From: Candidatus Staskawiczbacteria bacterium
Lineage (GTDB): Bacteria > Patescibacteriota > Minisyncoccia > Minisyncoccales > Staskawiczbacteraceae
Assembly: GCA_023245145.1 (NCBI GenBank)
Contig: JAHFKW010000003.1
Coordinates: 5,857 to 49,558, forward strand
Direction: 5' to 3'
Length of the DNA stretch: 43,702 nt
The notes beneath the pieces are model-generated. The model was not told the DNA's origin. It saw only the letters and a program-made list of their open reading frames with translations, and ran no database searches. Each line of letters opens with the position of its first letter. Position 1 is the first letter of the stretch. Shown piece by piece: positions 12,204 to 30,969 of the stretch. The translations under genes were made by a program, and so were the position numbers.

Positions 12204-13538
12204 ATGGTTAACAAATCTATTTTTAAGGCTTACGATGTGAGGGGCATTTATCCGGCTGATTTAAATAAAGAGGCGGCAACTAAGATTGGTCGGGCTTTTG
12301 TGCGTTATACTGGCGCCAAAAACATAGTGGTGTGCCAAGATGCTCGTCTATCCAGCCCAGAGCTATTTCGAGCCTTGTGCAAGGGTCTTTTGGCTGAAGG
12401 GGCAAAAGTGACCAGTATCGGCCAAATGCCCACCGAATGCCTTTATTTTGCGGTTGGCAATTATGATTTTGATGGGGGAATTATGATTACGGCTAGCCAT
12501 AATCCCAAGGAGTATAACGGGTTTAAGATGATGAAACTAGGTAAAGAGCAAATTGAATGGATTCGGGGCGTTGATTTGTTGCCCATTGTTGAAGTGGGAG
12601 ACTTTCCAAAAAAAGAAGTTGATGAAAAAATTATAAAAAATAATATCGTAGATGATTATATAAACTACATCTTTAATTTATTTGATTTTTCTGAAATAAA
12701 AAAGTTAAAAGTTATAGTGGATGCATCCAACGGAGTAGTGGGCAATACGCTTTCAAAAATAAAAATGCCGGTGGAAATTATCCCCCTTAATTTTAAACCG
12801 GATGGAAACTTCCCCAATCACTCGCCAAATCCATTAGAGCCGGGTGCGTCAGACCAAATTTCAGCTGAAATTAAAAAACAAAAAGCGGATTTTGGATTTA
12901 TGTTTGATGGGGACGCTGACCGAATATTTTTAGTGGATGAAAAAGGCGATTTAGTTTCGGCCGATGTCGCCAGATTGGTCTTGGCAAAACATTTTTTAAA
13001 GAAAAATTCCAAAGCTGTGATTGTTCATGATGCCATTTGTTCACGTGCGGTGCCGGAATTAATTAAAAAATGGGATGGGGTGCCGGTGCGCTCGGAAGTT
13101 GGCTTTGTGAATATCCGGGAGGCTTTAATTAAAAATAAGGGCATTATGGGTGGGGAATTATCCAGCCATTATTGTTTTCGTGATTATTTTTACATGGATT
13201 CCGGCTTAGTGGCGTTTTTATTGATGTTGCAAGAAATTTCTTTGGACGGCCGGAAGGTTTCAGAAATAGTCAAAGAGTTGACGTTGTATGCCAAATCTCC
13301 AACGATTAATTTTGAAGTGAAAGATAAGGATGCCGTGCTTTCAAAGATCAAAGAAAAGTATAAAGATGGCAATCAGGACTTTTTGGACGGCGTGACGGTG
13401 GAGTATGAAGATTGGTGGTTTAATGTCCGGGCTTCAAATACGGAGCCGTTGTTAAGACTAACTATTGAAGCTAATACACAAGAATTGTTGGAGGAAAAGA
13501 AAAGTGAGTTGAGCGAGGTTATAAAAAATGAGGCTTAG
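12204..13538 (+). CDS. manB: phosphomannomutase/phosphoglucomutase
   Basis: ATASHNPKEYNGFKMM phosphoserine loop; FDGDADRIFLVDEKG; RASNTEPLLRLTIEA. Start placed at the internal ATG 12204 (MVNKSIFKAYDVRGIYP). Confidence 0.92.
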   Translation: MVNKSIFKAYDVRGIYPADLNKEAATKIGRAFVRYTGAKNIVVCQDARLSSPELFRALCKGLLAEGAKVTSIGQMPTECLYFAVGNYDFDGGIMITASHNPKEYNGFKMMKLGKEQIEWIRGVDLLPIVEVGDFPKKEVDEKIIKNNIVDDYINYIFNLFDFSEIKKLKVIVDASNGVVGNTLSKIKMPVEIIPLNFKPDGNFPNHSPNPLEPGASDQISAEIKKQKADFGFMFDGDADRIFLVDEKGDLVSADVARLVLAKHFLKKNSKAVIVHDAICSRAVPELIKKWDGVPVRSEVGFVNIREALIKNKGIMGGELSSHYCFRDYFYMDSGLVAFLLMLQEISLDGRKVSEIVKELTLYAKSPTINFEVKDKDAVLSKIKEKYKDGNQDFLDGVTVEYEDWWFNVRASNTEPLLRLTIEANTQELLEEKKSELSEVIKNEA

Positions 13539-14512
13539 ATAAGCCCCATTTTTTGTTTGACTTCGCGCATGGTGGTTTCAGCAATTTTTTGGGCTTTGGT
13601 GGCACCCTGTTTTAAAATTTCTTGCACGTACACATCGCGCGCGGCAAATTCGGTTTGTTTTTTACGGAATGGTTCAAGATAATTTACCAGCACTTCTGCG
13701 AGTGACTTTTTAAATTCGCCATAATTTTTTCCGGCAAATTCTTTTTCTAATTCCTGTGTGGTTTTGCCAGTCAGTAAGCTGTAAATCATGAGCAAATTGG
13801 AAATACCCGGTTTTTTGGTGAGATTGTATTTAATATCTTTACCTGAATCTGTCGCCGCCGCCATAATTTTCTTGGTAATAGCTTCTGGCGCGTCAAACAG
13901 GAAAATGCAGGATTTTGCGTCATCCGATTTGGACATTTTCTTTTTGGGGTCCATCAGCGACATAATTTTTGCGCCTTCTTGTAAAATTAAAGACTTGGGT
14001 TCATCAAATACTTTACCGAATTTTTGGTTAAACTTACGCGCCAAGGTTCTGGTTAATTCAACGTGCTGTTCTTGGTCTTTGCCCACTGGTACACCACCAG
14101 CTTTGTACAGTAAAATATCGCCGGCCATCAGCACCGGGTAATCCAAAAGACCCACGTTAATATTGTCTTTAAACTTCTTAGACTTATCTTTATACTGCGT
14201 CATTCTCTCCAACTCTCCCAGGGGGCAAATGGTGTTTAAAAGCCAAGCCAATTCGGCGTGTTCTTTGATTTGAGATTGCGCAAAGATGATGCACTTTTCA
14301 GGATCTAAACCAGCGGCAATTAAAGCTACTACAGTTTCCCTGATTTTTGCCGGCAGTTGCTTTGGGTCGTAGGGAATGGTTAAAGCATGCAAATCAACGA
14401 TGCAATAAATGCACTCGTTATTTTCTTGTAGGGCAACCCATTGTTTTATGGCTCCCAAATAATTTCCAATGTGAAGCTGATTGGTAGGCTGAACGCCTGA
14501 AAATATTTTCAT
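13535..14512 (-). CDS. trpS: tryptophanyl-tRNA synthetase
   Basis: SGVQPTNQLHIGNYLGAIKQW; KKMSKSD. Confidence 0.97.
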   Translation of the reverse strand: MKIFSGVQPTNQLHIGNYLGAIKQWVALQENNECIYCIVDLHALTIPYDPKQLPAKIRETVVALIAAGLDPEKCIIFAQSQIKEHAELAWLLNTICPLGELERMTQYKDKSKKFKDNINVGLLDYPVLMAGDILLYKAGGVPVGKDQEQHVELTRTLARKFNQKFGKVFDEPKSLILQEGAKIMSLMDPKKKMSKSDDAKSCIFLFDAPEAITKKIMAAATDSGKDIKYNLTKKPGISNLLMIYSLLTGKTTQELEKEFAGKNYGEFKKSLAEVLVNYLEPFRKKQTEFAARDVYVQEILKQGATKAQKIAETTMREVKQKMGLI

Positions 14513-14533
14513 TGCGATACATTATTCTCCTGT

Positions 14534-14554
14534 ATTGTACCAAAAAGCAGGGGA
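14534..14554 (-). promoter_or_regulatory. trpS upstream element, duplicated upstream of hicB
   Basis: attgtaccaaaaagcagggga identical at 15431-15451; minus strand contains GGTACAAT, a -10-like sequence. Confidence 0.5.
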
Positions 14555-14565
14555 TCCCGAAAGAC

Positions 14566-14594
14566 TTGACAAGAGTGCTTGTCCATGCTAACAT
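14566..14594 (+). promoter_or_regulatory. sigma70-type promoter of small cassette
   Basis: TTGACA-17-TAACAT. Confidence 0.65.
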
Positions 14595-14640
14595 TAATTC
14601 ATAGATACCCCCCCCTACCCAAACAAGAAGGAGATGAGCC

Positions 14641-14931
14641 GTGACGACCACATTGAGAGACCTAGTCAACCTGAACACAGAAGTGAAAGCAATGATTTGC
14701 TTCTTCGGGTGTACGGCGAACTTCGAGGCGGAGTTCACTCGCCGTTGCAGGTACGTTGGTGATGCGATTTGTGGCGATTTCAATAGTCCGGGAGTATGGA
14801 TCGGGGCGATGGATGTGAAGGCATTGCCGCCAGAAACCCACCTCGGCCCAAGAGCGGAGGAGGCATTCCTTGAACTGAAAAAATGGCTTGAAACCCAGCA
14901 CCCAGATTTCAAGGCAAAGCCCACCGCCTAA
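14641..14931 (+). CDS. small solo-cassette hypothetical protein
   Basis: GTG start after aaggag RBS; promoter and terminator flank a 96 aa ORF. Confidence 0.55.
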   Translation: MTTTLRDLVNLNTEVKAMICFFGCTANFEAEFTRRCRYVGDAICGDFNSPGVWIGAMDVKALPPETHLGPRAEEAFLELKKWLETQHPDFKAKPTA

Positions 14932-14951
14932 TCGTTCTTTCTTTTCGTCTG

Positions 14952-14979
14952 GCCCCTTGCATCTGCTTGGGGCTTTTTT
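14952..14979 (+). terminator. intrinsic terminator
   Basis: GCCCC...GGGGC followed by T6. Confidence 0.65.
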
Positions 14980-14980
14980 C

Positions 14981-15011
14981 TTTACACCTCAATTACCACC
15001 GGCAAAATCAT
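14981..15011. repeat. 31-bp direct repeat, copy 2 (duplicated rnj 3' end; forms the hicA 3' end)
   Basis: tttacacctcaattaccaccggcaaaatcat identical to 15482-15512. Confidence 0.95.
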
Positions 15012-15213
15012 CTTTTGTCAGTCCTGATTGGCGCAAGATAGATTTGAAAGTTCCAAAAGGGATTTCTTTTTTGTGAGCTGGAACAATAACCGTCAACTTT
15101 TTATTTTCAATATATTTTCTAAATTTCACATGACTGCCTTTCTGCGATACATGCACAAAGCCCTTCTGTTGAAGAACTTTAATTATGTGCGAAAACAAAT
15201 ATAGCTTAGGCAT
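14989..15213 (-). CDS. hicA: HicA-family toxin (mRNA interferase)
   Basis: 74 aa; IIKVLQQKGFVHVSQKGSHVKFRK...TVIVPAHKKEIPFGTFKSILRQSGL, HicA/YcfA dsRBD-like fold with conserved GSH. Confidence 0.88.
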   Translation of the reverse strand: MPKLYLFSHIIKVLQQKGFVHVSQKGSHVKFRKYIENKKLTVIVPAHKKEIPFGTFKSILRQSGLTKDDFAGGN

Positions 15214-15424
15214 GGTTTAGCGACAGGTTAACCAATTCCGGACTTTCAATTTTGGTCAGACCCCCGATCTTCTCATCCTCAAAATATAGTTCTAGCGCTT
15301 CGTTTAATTTAGACAGAGCTTCTTTTTTGGTTACACCAAAACTAGAAACCTCTACATTTAAACACTGGGCAACATAGTACTTACCCTCTTTCCAAATAAT
15401 ATTTTTTAAATTTATTTTTTTCAT
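15206..15424 (-). CDS. hicB: HicB-family antitoxin
   Basis: MKKINLKNIIWKEGKYYVAQCLNVEVSSFGVTKKEALSKLNEALELYFE; start reassigned to ATG 15424; overlaps hicA. Confidence 0.85.
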   Translation of the reverse strand: MKKINLKNIIWKEGKYYVAQCLNVEVSSFGVTKKEALSKLNEALELYFEDEKIGGLTKIESPELVNLSLNHA

Positions 15425-15481
15425 GGTTTTATTGTACCAAAAAGCAGGGGAGTCCGCCATAGTTCTATTCCAAAATGCAAT

Positions 15482-15512
15482 TTTACACCTCAATTACCAC
15501 CGGCAAAATCAT
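15482..15512. repeat. 31-bp direct repeat, copy 1 (native rnj 3' end)
   Basis: encodes ...MILPVVIEV* of RNase J on the minus strand. Confidence 0.95.
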
Positions 15513-17291
15513 GGGTCTTCTCTCCGTTCTTGCGAACAGAAAATCTCCGACTTTGTTGCGAATTTCATCTTTGACATATGACCAGTTGATCGGATTTTCT
15601 TTGCCATGGCCACTGGTTTTTTCCACAATTTCAATGACTTTTTTGCGAGTTTGGGCCAGCAAATCCTTGGATTCTCTTAAATACACAAATCCTCTGGAAA
15701 TAATATCCGGACTGCCTTTGATTTTTCCGGTTTTACTGTCCACAATGGCCACAATCACAAACATGCCATCTTGGCTTAACGCTTGTCGGTCGCGTAAAAC
15801 CACTTCGCCAATGTCGCCCACGCCAAGTCCGTCCACAAACACGTAATTGCTTGGCACTTTTTCTTTGAGAACTTCGGCTTTGCCCTGACTAAATTTTATC
15901 ACAGAACCGTTGTCGGGCACAAATATCTTGTGTTTAAGGATGCCCATCTGTTCTCCAATTCTGGCCGCTTCACGCAACATAAAATGGTTGCCGTAGACCG
16001 GAATAAAGTAATCGGGTTTGATTTCGCTTAAAATTTGCTTAATGCCATCCACGTTGGTGTGACCGGAGGCATGCACGTTCATAATGTCGTTGTGGTAGAC
16101 ATTGTCTGACAGGCGGTAAATATTGTCCTTGACGCGCTGAACGGTACGTTCATTACCGGGAATAACCGAAGACGAGAAAATAATCGTATCCTGTTTTTTG
16201 ATGGAAATATATTTATGGTTGCCGGCGATAATTCTGGGCAAGGCTGCCATTTCTTCACCCTGCGCGCCGGTGCAAATGACAATGACTTTATTATCCGGAT
16301 AATTTTTAATGGAATCCACCGGAATTACCACGCCTTTTGGCACTTTAATGTAGCCCAGTTGGGTGGCCAGCTCAATATTCATCTTCATGCTAAAACCATC
16401 CAAGGCCACTTTTTTATTGGTTTTGGCGGCAAATTCCATGACCTGTTTAATTCTTTCAATCTGACTGGAAAAAGTAGCAATGATGGTACGGCCCGGCGCC
16501 AAGCCAATAATTTTTTGAATGTTGCCCATCATCTCTTGTTCGGTCACCGGAGTTTTGGTGTTAATGGCCCCCAAAGCTTCCAACATTAAAATGGTCGGCT
16601 TGCCTAATTTTTTTAAGTCAGCCAGTTGGTGGTAATGCAACACATCGCGTCCAACGGGGTCTTTTTCAATAGTCCAATCGCCAGGGTGAATAATTGTGGC
16701 CACCGGTGTTTCCAAAATCACCCCCACCGCGTCCATGATGGCGTGGTCAATGGCAAAAAAGGAAATTTTAAACGGCCCCAAATCAACTTTGTCCGAGATG
16801 TCTTTAATATATTGGATTTTCAGTTTTTTGGAAGCGTTTCGTTCCATATCTTCCACTCGGTGTTTGATCATTTCAATGGTTAAGGGCCGGCCCATAATCT
16901 GTGGATTACCCAATTTTTTTAATAAAATAGGGGCAGCGCCAATGTGGTCTAAATGTCCGTGAGAAAAAATCACGGCTTTAATTTGTTTTTCTTTGCCTTT
17001 TAAATATTCCGTGTTGGGGATGACATAATCAATGCCGGGCATGTCTTCTTCGGGAAATTGCAGGCCCATATCAAGGATCACAATATCGCCGGCGTATTCA
17101 AAGACGGTCATGTTGCGGCCCACTTCTTCACATCCGCCCAGGGGGATGATTTTCAGCGCCTGCTCACGAACTATGTTGGCTTGCATAGCAGGTTTTGCTA
17201 TAATACTAGGCTTTGTCCCGCCGAAGCTTTGAGCGGAGGGGGATTTGCTTTGCACAGGGTGCAAAGATTTTTTCAAATCTTGTTTTATCAT
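15483..17291 (-). CDS. rnj: ribonuclease J (metallo-beta-lactamase/beta-CASP)
   Basis: KIIPLGGCEEVGRNMTVFEYAGDIVILDMGLQFPEEDMPGIDYVIPN; SHGHLDHIGA; beta-CASP CTGAQGEEMAALPRI; HASGHTNVDGIKQI. Confidence 0.97.
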   Translation of the reverse strand: MIKQDLKKSLHPVQSKSPSAQSFGGTKPSIIAKPAMQANIVREQALKIIPLGGCEEVGRNMTVFEYAGDIVILDMGLQFPEEDMPGIDYVIPNTEYLKGKEKQIKAVIFSHGHLDHIGAAPILLKKLGNPQIMGRPLTIEMIKHRVEDMERNASKKLKIQYIKDISDKVDLGPFKISFFAIDHAIMDAVGVILETPVATIIHPGDWTIEKDPVGRDVLHYHQLADLKKLGKPTILMLEALGAINTKTPVTEQEMMGNIQKIIGLAPGRTIIATFSSQIERIKQVMEFAAKTNKKVALDGFSMKMNIELATQLGYIKVPKGVVIPVDSIKNYPDNKVIVICTGAQGEEMAALPRIIAGNHKYISIKKQDTIIFSSSVIPGNERTVQRVKDNIYRLSDNVYHNDIMNVHASGHTNVDGIKQILSEIKPDYFIPVYGNHFMLREAARIGEQMGILKHKIFVPDNGSVIKFSQGKAEVLKEKVPSNYVFVDGLGVGDIGEVVLRDRQALSQDGMFVIVAIVDSKTGKIKGSPDIISRGFVYLRESKDLLAQTRKKVIEIVEKTSGHGKENPINWSYVKDEIRNKVGDFLFARTERRPMILPVVIEV

Positions 17292-28678: not shown

Positions 28679-29458
28679 ATGCCATTTAAGGAAGGGGATG
28701 GTCAAAAGGTTGGTGCAAGTAAAAATGAAGAGCTTGCGCCTGAGCAGATAGTGACAACTTTAGCTAATGAGCTACCTGGTTTTAAGATGAGAGAATTCTC
28801 GCATGTAGAAATACCTCAAGAAATAGATTATCAGGCTTTCGGATATGTCGATATGTCTCAAGGGACAGGAATAAAATTAAAACAATTGCAAGAAAGTTTA
28901 GAAAATCCTGATGGGAAATATACAGCTGCAATTGCAATAGTGGATGCAAATAAGAATATTACTTCAAAAAAATACAAAGAAGCAAAAAGAGTGGTAGATA
29001 AATCTAAGATAGATCGGCAGAAAACAGAAGACGAAATAAAACAATTAGAGGATGGGCAGCACGTCATGGGGGAGCTAAAAGAAGCACTGGAAAGTTTGGC
29101 GCGATTTTGTAGTGAGTTTTCTGATCGTCCGATGATTTTTGATTCACTCAATGATTCAGAGAGAAGTGCTTGGCGAGATGAGAAAGGTAAACAATATGGG
29201 GTGGCCTTTGATAAGTTTTTCAAAAGGAACAAGCTAACAATTAATTCGCTTTTGCCAGTTGTCGAAGGGGTTCATAGTTTACTGAAGCTTACCAAGAATA
29301 TTAAATCTCCGAAAATACAGGAGTTTGTATCGATAGCCAAGGAAATTCCACAAGATTTGAAGTTTTATTACTATGTAACTTTAGAAGAAAAAGTAATATT
29401 TGTAGAAAAAATAGATAATCTCTGTAGAAAGTTTTTACAGCTTATTGGTAAAGAATAA
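28679..29458 (+). CDS. hypothetical protein (259 aa)
   Basis: ORF translationally packed between lemA and the htpX 5' remnant; no recognised family. Confidence 0.6.
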   Translation: MPFKEGDGQKVGASKNEELAPEQIVTTLANELPGFKMREFSHVEIPQEIDYQAFGYVDMSQGTGIKLKQLQESLENPDGKYTAAIAIVDANKNITSKKYKEAKRVVDKSKIDRQKTEDEIKQLEDGQHVMGELKEALESLARFCSEFSDRPMIFDSLNDSERSAWRDEKGKQYGVAFDKFFKRNKLTINSLLPVVEGVHSLLKLTKNIKSPKIQEFVSIAKEIPQDLKFYYYVTLEEKVIFVEKIDNLCRKFLQLIGKE

Positions 29459-29459
29459 T

Positions 29460-29546
29460 ATGGCCTCAATTTACACTCAAGCAGATTCGAATACTCGCAA
29501 AACTTGGTTTTTGATAACCGGGTTTTTGGTGTTTGTGATTGCCTAG
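29460..29546 (+). pseudogene. truncated duplicate of the htpX 5' end
   Basis: MASIYTQADSNTRKTWFLITGFLVFVIA* vs MPSIYTQADSNTRKTWFLITGFLVFVIAVGW at 30064; nearly all differences synonymous. Confidence 0.9.
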
Positions 29547-29556
29547 ACAAAACGTT

Positions 29557-29946
29557 ATGAAAAAAGATTTTGACAAGTGGAATATCAGAAAAAAGGAAAC
29601 CAATTCAGATAATGACTACTTGCCTCTGTATCATAGGCGTCAAATAAGATGGTGTCGTCTGGGTGTTAATGTTGGCTATGAACAAGATGGCACGGGGAAG
29701 GATTTTTCAAGACCAGTTTTAATTTTAAAAGGCTTTAGTAGGCATGTTTGTTTGGTCGTGCCCTTAACTACTTCTGAAAAGAAAAACCCTTACCATGTTT
29801 CAGTTGGAAAAATTGATGGCAAAAACGCATTTACTATTATTTCGCAAATCCGCCTGATAGATACTAAGCGTCTTGACCAACATATTGCAACACTGGATAA
29901 AAAATTATTTGAGTTAATACAAAAAGCCGTCAAAGACATGCTCTGA
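29557..29946 (+). CDS. PemK/MazF-like type II toxin family protein
   Basis: GTGKDFSRPVLILKGFSRHVCLVVPLTTSEKKNPYHVSVG...SQIRLIDTKRLDQHIATLDKKLFELIQKAV. Confidence 0.75.
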   Translation: MKKDFDKWNIRKKETNSDNDYLPLYHRRQIRWCRLGVNVGYEQDGTGKDFSRPVLILKGFSRHVCLVVPLTTSEKKNPYHVSVGKIDGKNAFTIISQIRLIDTKRLDQHIATLDKKLFELIQKAVKDML

Positions 29947-29998
29947 CGACTTCTGTTGTTCTCCCCCGGTAAAGGGGGCCGGCCCGAAGGCATTTATG
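29921..29998 (-). ncRNA. predicted short antisense ncRNA overlapping the toxin 3' end
   Basis: minus-strand promoter, inner CCCCC/GGGGG hairpin, then GTCGTCA-N11-TGACGGC + T5 terminator at 29950-29921. Confidence 0.5.
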
Positions 29999-30003
29999 GT
30001 TCT

Positions 30004-30031
30004 ATTATAGCAAATCATGGGTCTGTGTCAA
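30004..30031 (-). promoter_or_regulatory. near-perfect extended -10 sigma70 promoter
   Basis: minus strand TTGACA-16-TATAAT with TGC immediately upstream of -10. Confidence 0.75.
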
Positions 30032-30063
30032 TAGTAAAAATTTAATCTATAAAATATTAAGAT

Positions 30064-30969
30064 ATGCCCTCTATTTACACTCAAGCAGATTCTAACACCC
30101 GCAAAACATGGTTTTTAATAACCGGGTTTTTGGTGTTTGTGATTGCGGTGGGGTGGATTTTCAGCCAGGCATTGCAATCAAATGTTATTTTATTCGTGGC
30201 GGTGGTTTTGAGTATCTGTATGAGCGTGGGGAGTTATTGGTTTTCAGATAAAATGGTGCTGGCAATGGCGGGCGCGCGAGAAATTCAGAAAAAAGATAAT
30301 CCGGAGCTTTACAGAATAGTTGAAAATTTATGCATTACAGCTGGCCTGCCCGTGCCAAAAATATATATTATTAATGAAGCGCAATTAAACGCTTTTGCCA
30401 CGGGTCGGGATAAAAATCATGCGGTGGTGGCGGTGACCGCGGGCTTGTTAGAGCGCTTAAATAAAACAGAATTGGAAGGCGTTATTGCGCACGAATTAAG
30501 CCACATTGGAAATAAAGATATGTTGATTGGCACTATGGTGGTGGTGTTGGCGGGAATAGTTTCATTGTTGGCAAACTTTTTTTTGAGAATTAGTTTTTGG
30601 GGTGGGGGCAGAAGGAACAATAATGATAATAACAGTGCTGCTGGAATTTTAATGATTGTTGGTATTTTGGCTGCTATTTTGGCACCCATTGCCGCTACGC
30701 TTATCAGGCTAGCTATTTCTCGGAAACGCGAATCATTGGCCGATGCTTCTGGCGCACTTTTAACCCGCTACCCGGAAGGCTTGGCTAGTGCGTTGGAAAA
30801 AATTTCAGCCGATATGACCCCCATGAAAGTGGCCAACACCGCCAGCGCGCATTTGTACATTGATTCGCCATTTAATGAGAAGCAAAGCGAAAACTGGTTT
30901 GTCGGGTTATTTTCCACCCATCCGCCGATTGAAGAACGTATCAAAGCATTACGCGAGACTCAATTATGA
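30064..30969 (+). CDS. htpX: protease HtpX (M48 zinc metalloprotease)
   Basis: GVIAHELSHIGNKDMLIGT; TM segments; FSTHPPIEERIKAL. Confidence 0.96.
   Translation: MPSIYTQADSNTRKTWFLITGFLVFVIAVGWIFSQALQSNVILFVAVVLSICMSVGSYWFSDKMVLAMAGAREIQKKDNPELYRIVENLCITAGLPVPKIYIINEAQLNAFATGRDKNHAVVAVTAGLLERLNKTELEGVIAHELSHIGNKDMLIGTMVVVLAGIVSLLANFFLRISFWGGGRRNNNDNNSAAGILMIVGILAAILAPIAATLIRLAISRKRESLADASGALLTRYPEGLASALEKISADMTPMKVANTASAHLYIDSPFNEKQSENWFVGLFSTHPPIEERIKALRETQL

Follow-up and report, generated by a model that had tools for sequence, protein, structure and literature searches.

Genes and repeats at the rnj-trpS junction

The window (the whole stretch of DNA analysed, 43,702 nucleotides) belongs to contig C13 in the 14-contig draft genome (626 kb) of Candidatus Staskawiczbacteria bacterium. 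Along the minus strand it exhibits the gene order given in a preliminary description of this DNA: rnj, tail A, promoter A, hicB, hicA, tail B, a 96-codon gene on the opposite strand, promoter B and trpS. The features of the junction are as follows.

15483..17291, minus: rnj, RNase J, 602 aa (TIGR00649, 477 bits; PF17770); its last 30 bp lie inside repeat copy A
15482..15512, minus: rnj tail copy A, the native rnj 3' end (MILPVVIEV, stop); 31/31 identity to 14981-15011
15457..15481, no strand: middle of junction A, 25 bp, with no counterpart in copy B (sequence comparison)
15430..15456, minus: trpS-promoter copy A, preceding hicB; repeat of 14533-14559
15206..15424, minus: hicB-type antitoxin gene, 72 aa (HicB of relatives; weak DUF7387)
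14989..15213, minus: hicA toxin gene, 74 aa (PF07927; GSHxKF motif conserved)
15004..15011, minus: ATGATTTT, putative microhomology between the native hicA end (..GATGATTTT..) and the rnj tail (native hicA ends of relatives)
14981..15011, minus: rnj tail copy B, joined to hicA; repeat of copy A
14952..14980, plus: terminator-like hairpin and T-run of the opposite-strand gene, resembling the terminator at the same site in the related genome G008
14641..14931, plus: opposite-strand ORF ("cassette"), 96 codons, GC 0.53 against 0.41 for the window
14566..14594, plus: promoter-like TTGACA-17-TAACAT of the opposite-strand gene, its -35 box common to the G008 junction
14533..14559, minus: trpS promoter copy B, serving trpS; repeat of copy A
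13535..14512, minus: trpS, tryptophan--tRNA ligase (TIGR00233, 365 bits)

In a profile search the HicA sequence scores 64.9 bits against PF07927 (gathering cut-off 27), which places it in this family. Its translation carries KGSHVKF, and homologues keep the same GSHxKF-like motif, the histidine of which we take to be the catalytic residue. The 72-aa hicB ORF overlaps hicA by 8 bp. Its product is 64-74% identical to HicB of four related genomes and matches DUF7387 of Pfam weakly (26.1 bits, below the cut-off). A hicA match follows hicB in 78 of 80 loci.

The two ends of this gene pair bear on its origin. In most of 78 related loci (about 10 of them broken by frameshift or early stop) hicA continues for 1-7 residues, mostly lysines, past (E/D)(D/E)F and then stops. 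The hicA frame of the window passes through the rnj tail to the end DDFAGGN, with AGGN and the stop codon encoded by tail copy B. As the preliminary description had proposed, the HicA C-terminus would then derive from the second rnj tail read in another frame; comparison with the homologous ends supports native hicA sequence as far as the D-F codons and no further. The hicA end and the rnj tail have ATGATTTT in common, likely a microhomology joint. It fits the native hicA ends of relatives, from which the incoming end is inferred. At the other end, the copied -10 box TACAAT sits 6 nt upstream of the hicB ATG, in agreement with the earlier claim that a copy of the trpS promoter now stands in front of hicB. 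Since hicB of relatives such as G011 and G016 has a comparably short gap from its own -10 box, the new trpS-type promoter would preserve a leaderless hicB start.

A joint at ATGATTTT would also suit template switching at microhomologies during replication, in which the fork, after copying the rnj tail and promoter, switched to hicBA as template and then returned into the rnj tail; a possible short match at the -10 box on the hicB side points the same way. Template switching would yield identical copies and meets the objections given below for duplication in place, so that we consider it improbable.

Both perfect repeats reported previously are present. The rnj-tail repeat (14981-15011 and 15482-15512) is identical at 31/31 bp, and the 21-bp repeat (14534-14554 and 15431-15451) lies within a 25/27-bp match (14533-14559 and 15430-15456) with a perfect core of 22 bp. 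With up to 3 mismatches allowed, 0.03 occurrences of an 18-bp promoter core are expected in the window; there are two, which rules out chance. The only exact copies of the core in the whole 626-kb genome are these two, which likewise rules out a common promoter motif in place of a duplication; in G008 it is found once, with 1 mismatch, at the same rnj-trpS junction. Because of this distribution, the core is local junction sequence rather than a general motif.

The two junctions are not the same block. Copy A is continuous over 83 bp (15430-15512), whereas copy B consists of the two ends alone (27 and 31 bp). In place of the 25-bp middle of A, 421 bp of different sequence (14560-14980) separate them. 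The proposed duplication of a block of about 82 bp around hicBA thus stands for both ends of the block but not for its middle. Each junction exhibits different pieces with counterparts in the G008 junction: ATTGCA, which starts the middle of A directly behind the rnj tail as it does in G008, and CGGACTYCCCTGC are retained in A, and AGAAAAAAGCC and TTGTCAAGTCTTTCGG in B. Short as these pieces are, they are suggestive of two derivatives of one ancestral junction, and not of one block copied unchanged. The differences between the copies (25/27 bp; distinct middles) also argue against an assembly error at the repeats, conceivable as that is in a draft of 14 contigs; with the same pattern in many independently assembled genomes, such an error is hardly credible.

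The opposite-strand ORF at 14641..14931 had no family match in the profile search. Small, often GC-rich genes of this kind, on the opposite strand and with their own promoter and terminator, interrupt co-directional pairs of housekeeping genes elsewhere as well (besides 14560-14980 of the window, G000:C9:39734-39979, the second dnaK-dnaJ gap, L016, L017 and L030). The two copies of the dnaK-dnaJ junction contain a different opposite-strand small gene each.

Empty sites and flank copies at other toxin loci

Relatives with an empty rnj-trpS junction, by which the preliminary description proposed to check its reading, were found. Nine of 12 congeners exhibit a plain junction with a single rnj tail, no hicBA and a gene spacing of 20-145 bp; in two others (G005, G006) the region lies at contig ends or is split. 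These empty junctions support hicBA as a derived insertion at rnj-trpS. The tenth congener, G008, has the shared promoter followed directly by a nucleotidyltransferase-like gene, with a tRNA-Val gene on the opposite strand. Genes therefore do ride that promoter, and G008 indicates that a gene can occupy the spot behind it, as the donor proposed below would require. The related hicBA genes (64-74% identity) are located elsewhere in G009, G011, G016 and G025. The G016 pair (L050) has no flank copy. In G011 hicA (L048 / L235) is split by an insertion of about 75 bp and hicB is intact, which makes it a decayed toxin.

Empty sites with one copy of the target in relatives are also what is expected of the main rival interpretation, insertion with a long target duplication, in which entry of hicBA into the resident junction went along with in-place copying of the target block to either side of it, one middle being replaced later. 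The geometry target-insert-target, the identical 31-bp tails and copy lengths of the order of 100 bp, as for restriction-modification systems (PMC3874152), agree with it. On the other hand, the same continuous block was not found on both sides, copy B sharing 31 and 27 bp with A, and the differences between the A and B middles need later loss or gain on both sides.

A second toxin gene of the window is also flanked by copies of a neighbouring gene.

29458..29542, plus: htpX 5' end, truncated copy, 85 bp, 92%; repeat of 30062..30146
29557..29946, plus: MazF/PemK-like toxin gene between the htpX copies (PF02452, 52.8 bits)
30062..30146, plus: htpX 5' end, second copy, the start of intact htpX; repeat of 29458..29542

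The htpX duplication noted before is thus real, at 85 bp and 92%, but the constant length of about 83-87 bp suggested along with it is not: over all loci the lengths range from about 31 to more than 400 bp, and a fixed duplication length is ruled out. Flank duplications of toxin genes, for which the preliminary description proposed a scan of the genome, were seen in the same genome, in relatives and in other Patescibacteria. A scan of the genome for local direct repeats, with DGR pairs, intergenic low-complexity repeats and repeat proteins set apart, identified the htpX copy around one MazF-like toxin gene and a copy of the dnaK tail and dnaJ head around a second; a third MazF-like gene (C14) is without flank copies. 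Flank copies accompany 3 of 4 toxin loci and about 4 of 650 other genes (Fisher p = 3e-6, with an estimated gene count and including the two loci that prompted the search). One further direct repeat of the genome (58 bp, 95%; G000:C13:55115-55172 and 56422-56479) surrounds pyridoxamine-oxidase-like and peptidase-E-like genes, named by eye, and is possibly a non-toxin case of the same kind. Among the relatives, a MazF-like gene lies between pgk-tail copies in G010 (149 bp, 79%) and, a weaker case, between rpoC-head copies in G016 (35 bp, 83%).

For hicBA, straddling repeats were found at 11 of 80 loci versus 2 of 135 shifted controls. Flank duplication exceeded the 99th percentile of the cross-locus null at 14 of 77 loci, the window included. 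Random windows yielded 8/300 and 2/300, nearly all within repetitive genes. After integron-like repeats and paralogues had been taken out by eye, the clear cases besides the window are L232 (prmC head), L242 and L246 (map tail; both from Giovannonibacteria and possibly one old event), L215 (promoter region) and L217 (trmD tail, short). The flank copies of L234 (G009) and L235 (G011) are suggestive only.

Several candidates were rejected as support. Among the 11 straddling-repeat loci of hicBA, three (L267, L233, L244) carry what look like integron-cassette repeats of the attC type; the repeat of L269 resembles a pair of paralogous NUDIX genes and that of L254 a shared antitoxin tail. Of the strongest local repeats in this and related genomes, four exhibit A-specific differences, as do template/variable pairs of diversity-generating retroelements (G000:C8:43450/43942 and G000:C4:3654/4041 in the same genome; G008:C11:69661/70139 and G004:C1:371341/371796 in relatives). 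Since attC-like repeats (..AACGTT..) adjoin hicBA at several loci of other Patescibacteria (L233, L244, L267, L258, L276, L285), hicBA may also travel as integron cassettes.

Another reading makes hicBA a mobile element in its own right, with ends of its own and a long staggered target site. The unit is tight, little beyond promoter, hicB and hicA being conserved across loci in many lineages. However, the insert exhibits neither terminal inverted repeats nor a transposase, no recombinase lies nearby, reading of the surroundings revealed no unexplained ORF of transposase size, the duplication lengths vary, and most hicBA loci are without flank copies. Such an element is very improbable.

The MazF/PemK-like loci exhibit a further feature. 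At 21 of 21 of them (L134-L154) a promoter-like TTGACA-16/17-TATAMT, degenerate in a few, lies on the opposite strand directly behind the toxin stop, followed by a two-hairpin RNA of about 45-50 nt whose stems vary in sequence with the pairing kept. The window copy is at 29950-30031 on the minus strand. A comparison of five loci with Rfam gave no relevant family. This RNA could be an RNA antitoxin of solitary toxins.

Copying in place or joining of two alleles

Copies made in place are predicted to be identical initially, the dead copy then decaying at all codon positions. The duplicated gene ends at the other loci diverge by 8-25%, and over eight of them the differences number 24, 11 and 65 at codon positions 1, 2 and 3. 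The third-position excess is significant against one third (p = 1e-10) and against one half (p = 0.0018), the latter being the expectation for free drift of the dead copy combined with purely silent change in the live one; with htpX left out, p is 3e-9 and 0.006. The pgk fragment retains a nearly intact protein sequence at about 80% DNA identity. With G004 as reference, 5 of 7 changes between the htpX copies fall in the intact copy and 2 in the truncated one, opposite to a decay of the truncated copy. Some decay did follow in the dnaJ-head copy, which has stops and an indel. Because the differences fall mainly on third positions, it is suggested, from few cases of which two may be related, that most of the divergence arose while both copies were working genes, before they met.

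Such a bias and such divergence are unexpected if the copies start identical and one decays freely. With the differing A and B middles, they speak against the simple in-situ duplication of one block of about 82 bp that the preliminary description had proposed, and we consider insertion with target duplication less likely, if still the strongest of the rivals.

We favour, at about even chances, acquisition of hicBA from a relative through one homologous and one illegitimate end, with the donor and the resident junction left flanking it. A fragment from a related bacterium, in which hicBA followed the donor rnj 3' end and promoter, would have recombined with the resident rnj at the homologous end and been joined illegitimately at ATGATTTT, common to the hicA end and the rnj tail. 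Junction A would then be that of the donor and junction B that of the resident, with hicBA in between and both rnj and trpS intact. A trpS-type promoter would yield a leaderless hicB message, and hicA would finish in rnj-tail codons. A donor-derived flank agrees with the differing middles here and with the third-position bias at the other loci. The genome encodes ComEC and gave no match to Ku, which fits DNA uptake and speaks against end joining of the Ku type.

Some observations run against joined alleles. The 31-bp rnj tails are identical, so that the codon-position argument is inapplicable at the window locus, and no genome was found in which hicBA follows the trpS promoter (TTTTTGGTACAATA), as it would in the donor. 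The stops and indel of the dnaJ head are as expected from decay in place. At several other loci the second copy begins 0-8 bp past the hicA stop, a closer spacing than illegitimate ends at random positions would give. This boundary, at L217, L232, L242 and L246, has been counted in favour of target duplication, yet it is explained by neither the joining of alleles nor duplication in place.

Known systems and a possible route of spread of toxin modules

For restriction-modification genes, insertion with long target duplication was described in 2000 (Nobusato et al. 2000; Furuta et al. 2010; both by way of PMC3874152 and PMC1643837, with further material in PMC3031569), and these papers leave its mechanism unsettled. 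The resemblance lies in a small addiction-type gene set between target copies of about 100 bp and variable length, and in empty sites of relatives. In contrast, the present genes are toxin-antitoxin genes of Patescibacteria, the copies at other loci resemble two alleles with third-position divergence, and the toxin end is fused to a target copy.

Competent bacteria are documented to undergo homology-facilitated illegitimate recombination (PMC3240628; de Vries and Wackernagel 2002, as cited in PMC5361080). Like the joining of alleles proposed here, it combines a homologous with an illegitimate end in bacteria capable of DNA uptake; here it is read from sequence and invoked for conserved-gene flank copies around toxins. 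Integration by one homologous and one illegitimate end has been proposed for the type VI effector-immunity arrays of Vibrio cholerae (PMC5361080), where a toxin module likewise lies beside a conserved anchor and remnants of the resident allele are left. Those remnants are immunity genes, whereas here they are housekeeping gene ends.

As in type II HicAB systems, the toxin belongs to the HicA family with its conserved histidine motif and overlaps a 72-aa partner. It differs in the order hicB-hicA, in a partner that matches DUF7387 only, and weakly, and in a HicA C-terminus supplied by the neighbouring gene. No report of the flank-copy pattern at toxin-antitoxin genes in Patescibacteria was found in a literature search confined largely to papers outside subscription journals, which is no proof of novelty.

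How toxin-antitoxin genes enter chromosomes without a visible mobile element is an old question. The flank copies look like a scar of toxin gene acquisition. This footprint is seen at toxin genes in several Patescibacteria lineages, and coding divergence can separate copying in place from joined alleles. If the joining of alleles is correct, donor and recipient can be read from the flank copies, and the mechanism could be tested by transformation. We tentatively extend this, at rather less than even chances, to a common route by which Patescibacteria toxin modules (HicBA; MazF with its convergent structured RNA) would spread, leaving donor and resident copies of essential-gene ends on either side. 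If so, these compact genomes would accept insertions into essential operons with the operons unbroken, and a single step could provide a toxin with both a new promoter and a new C-terminus.
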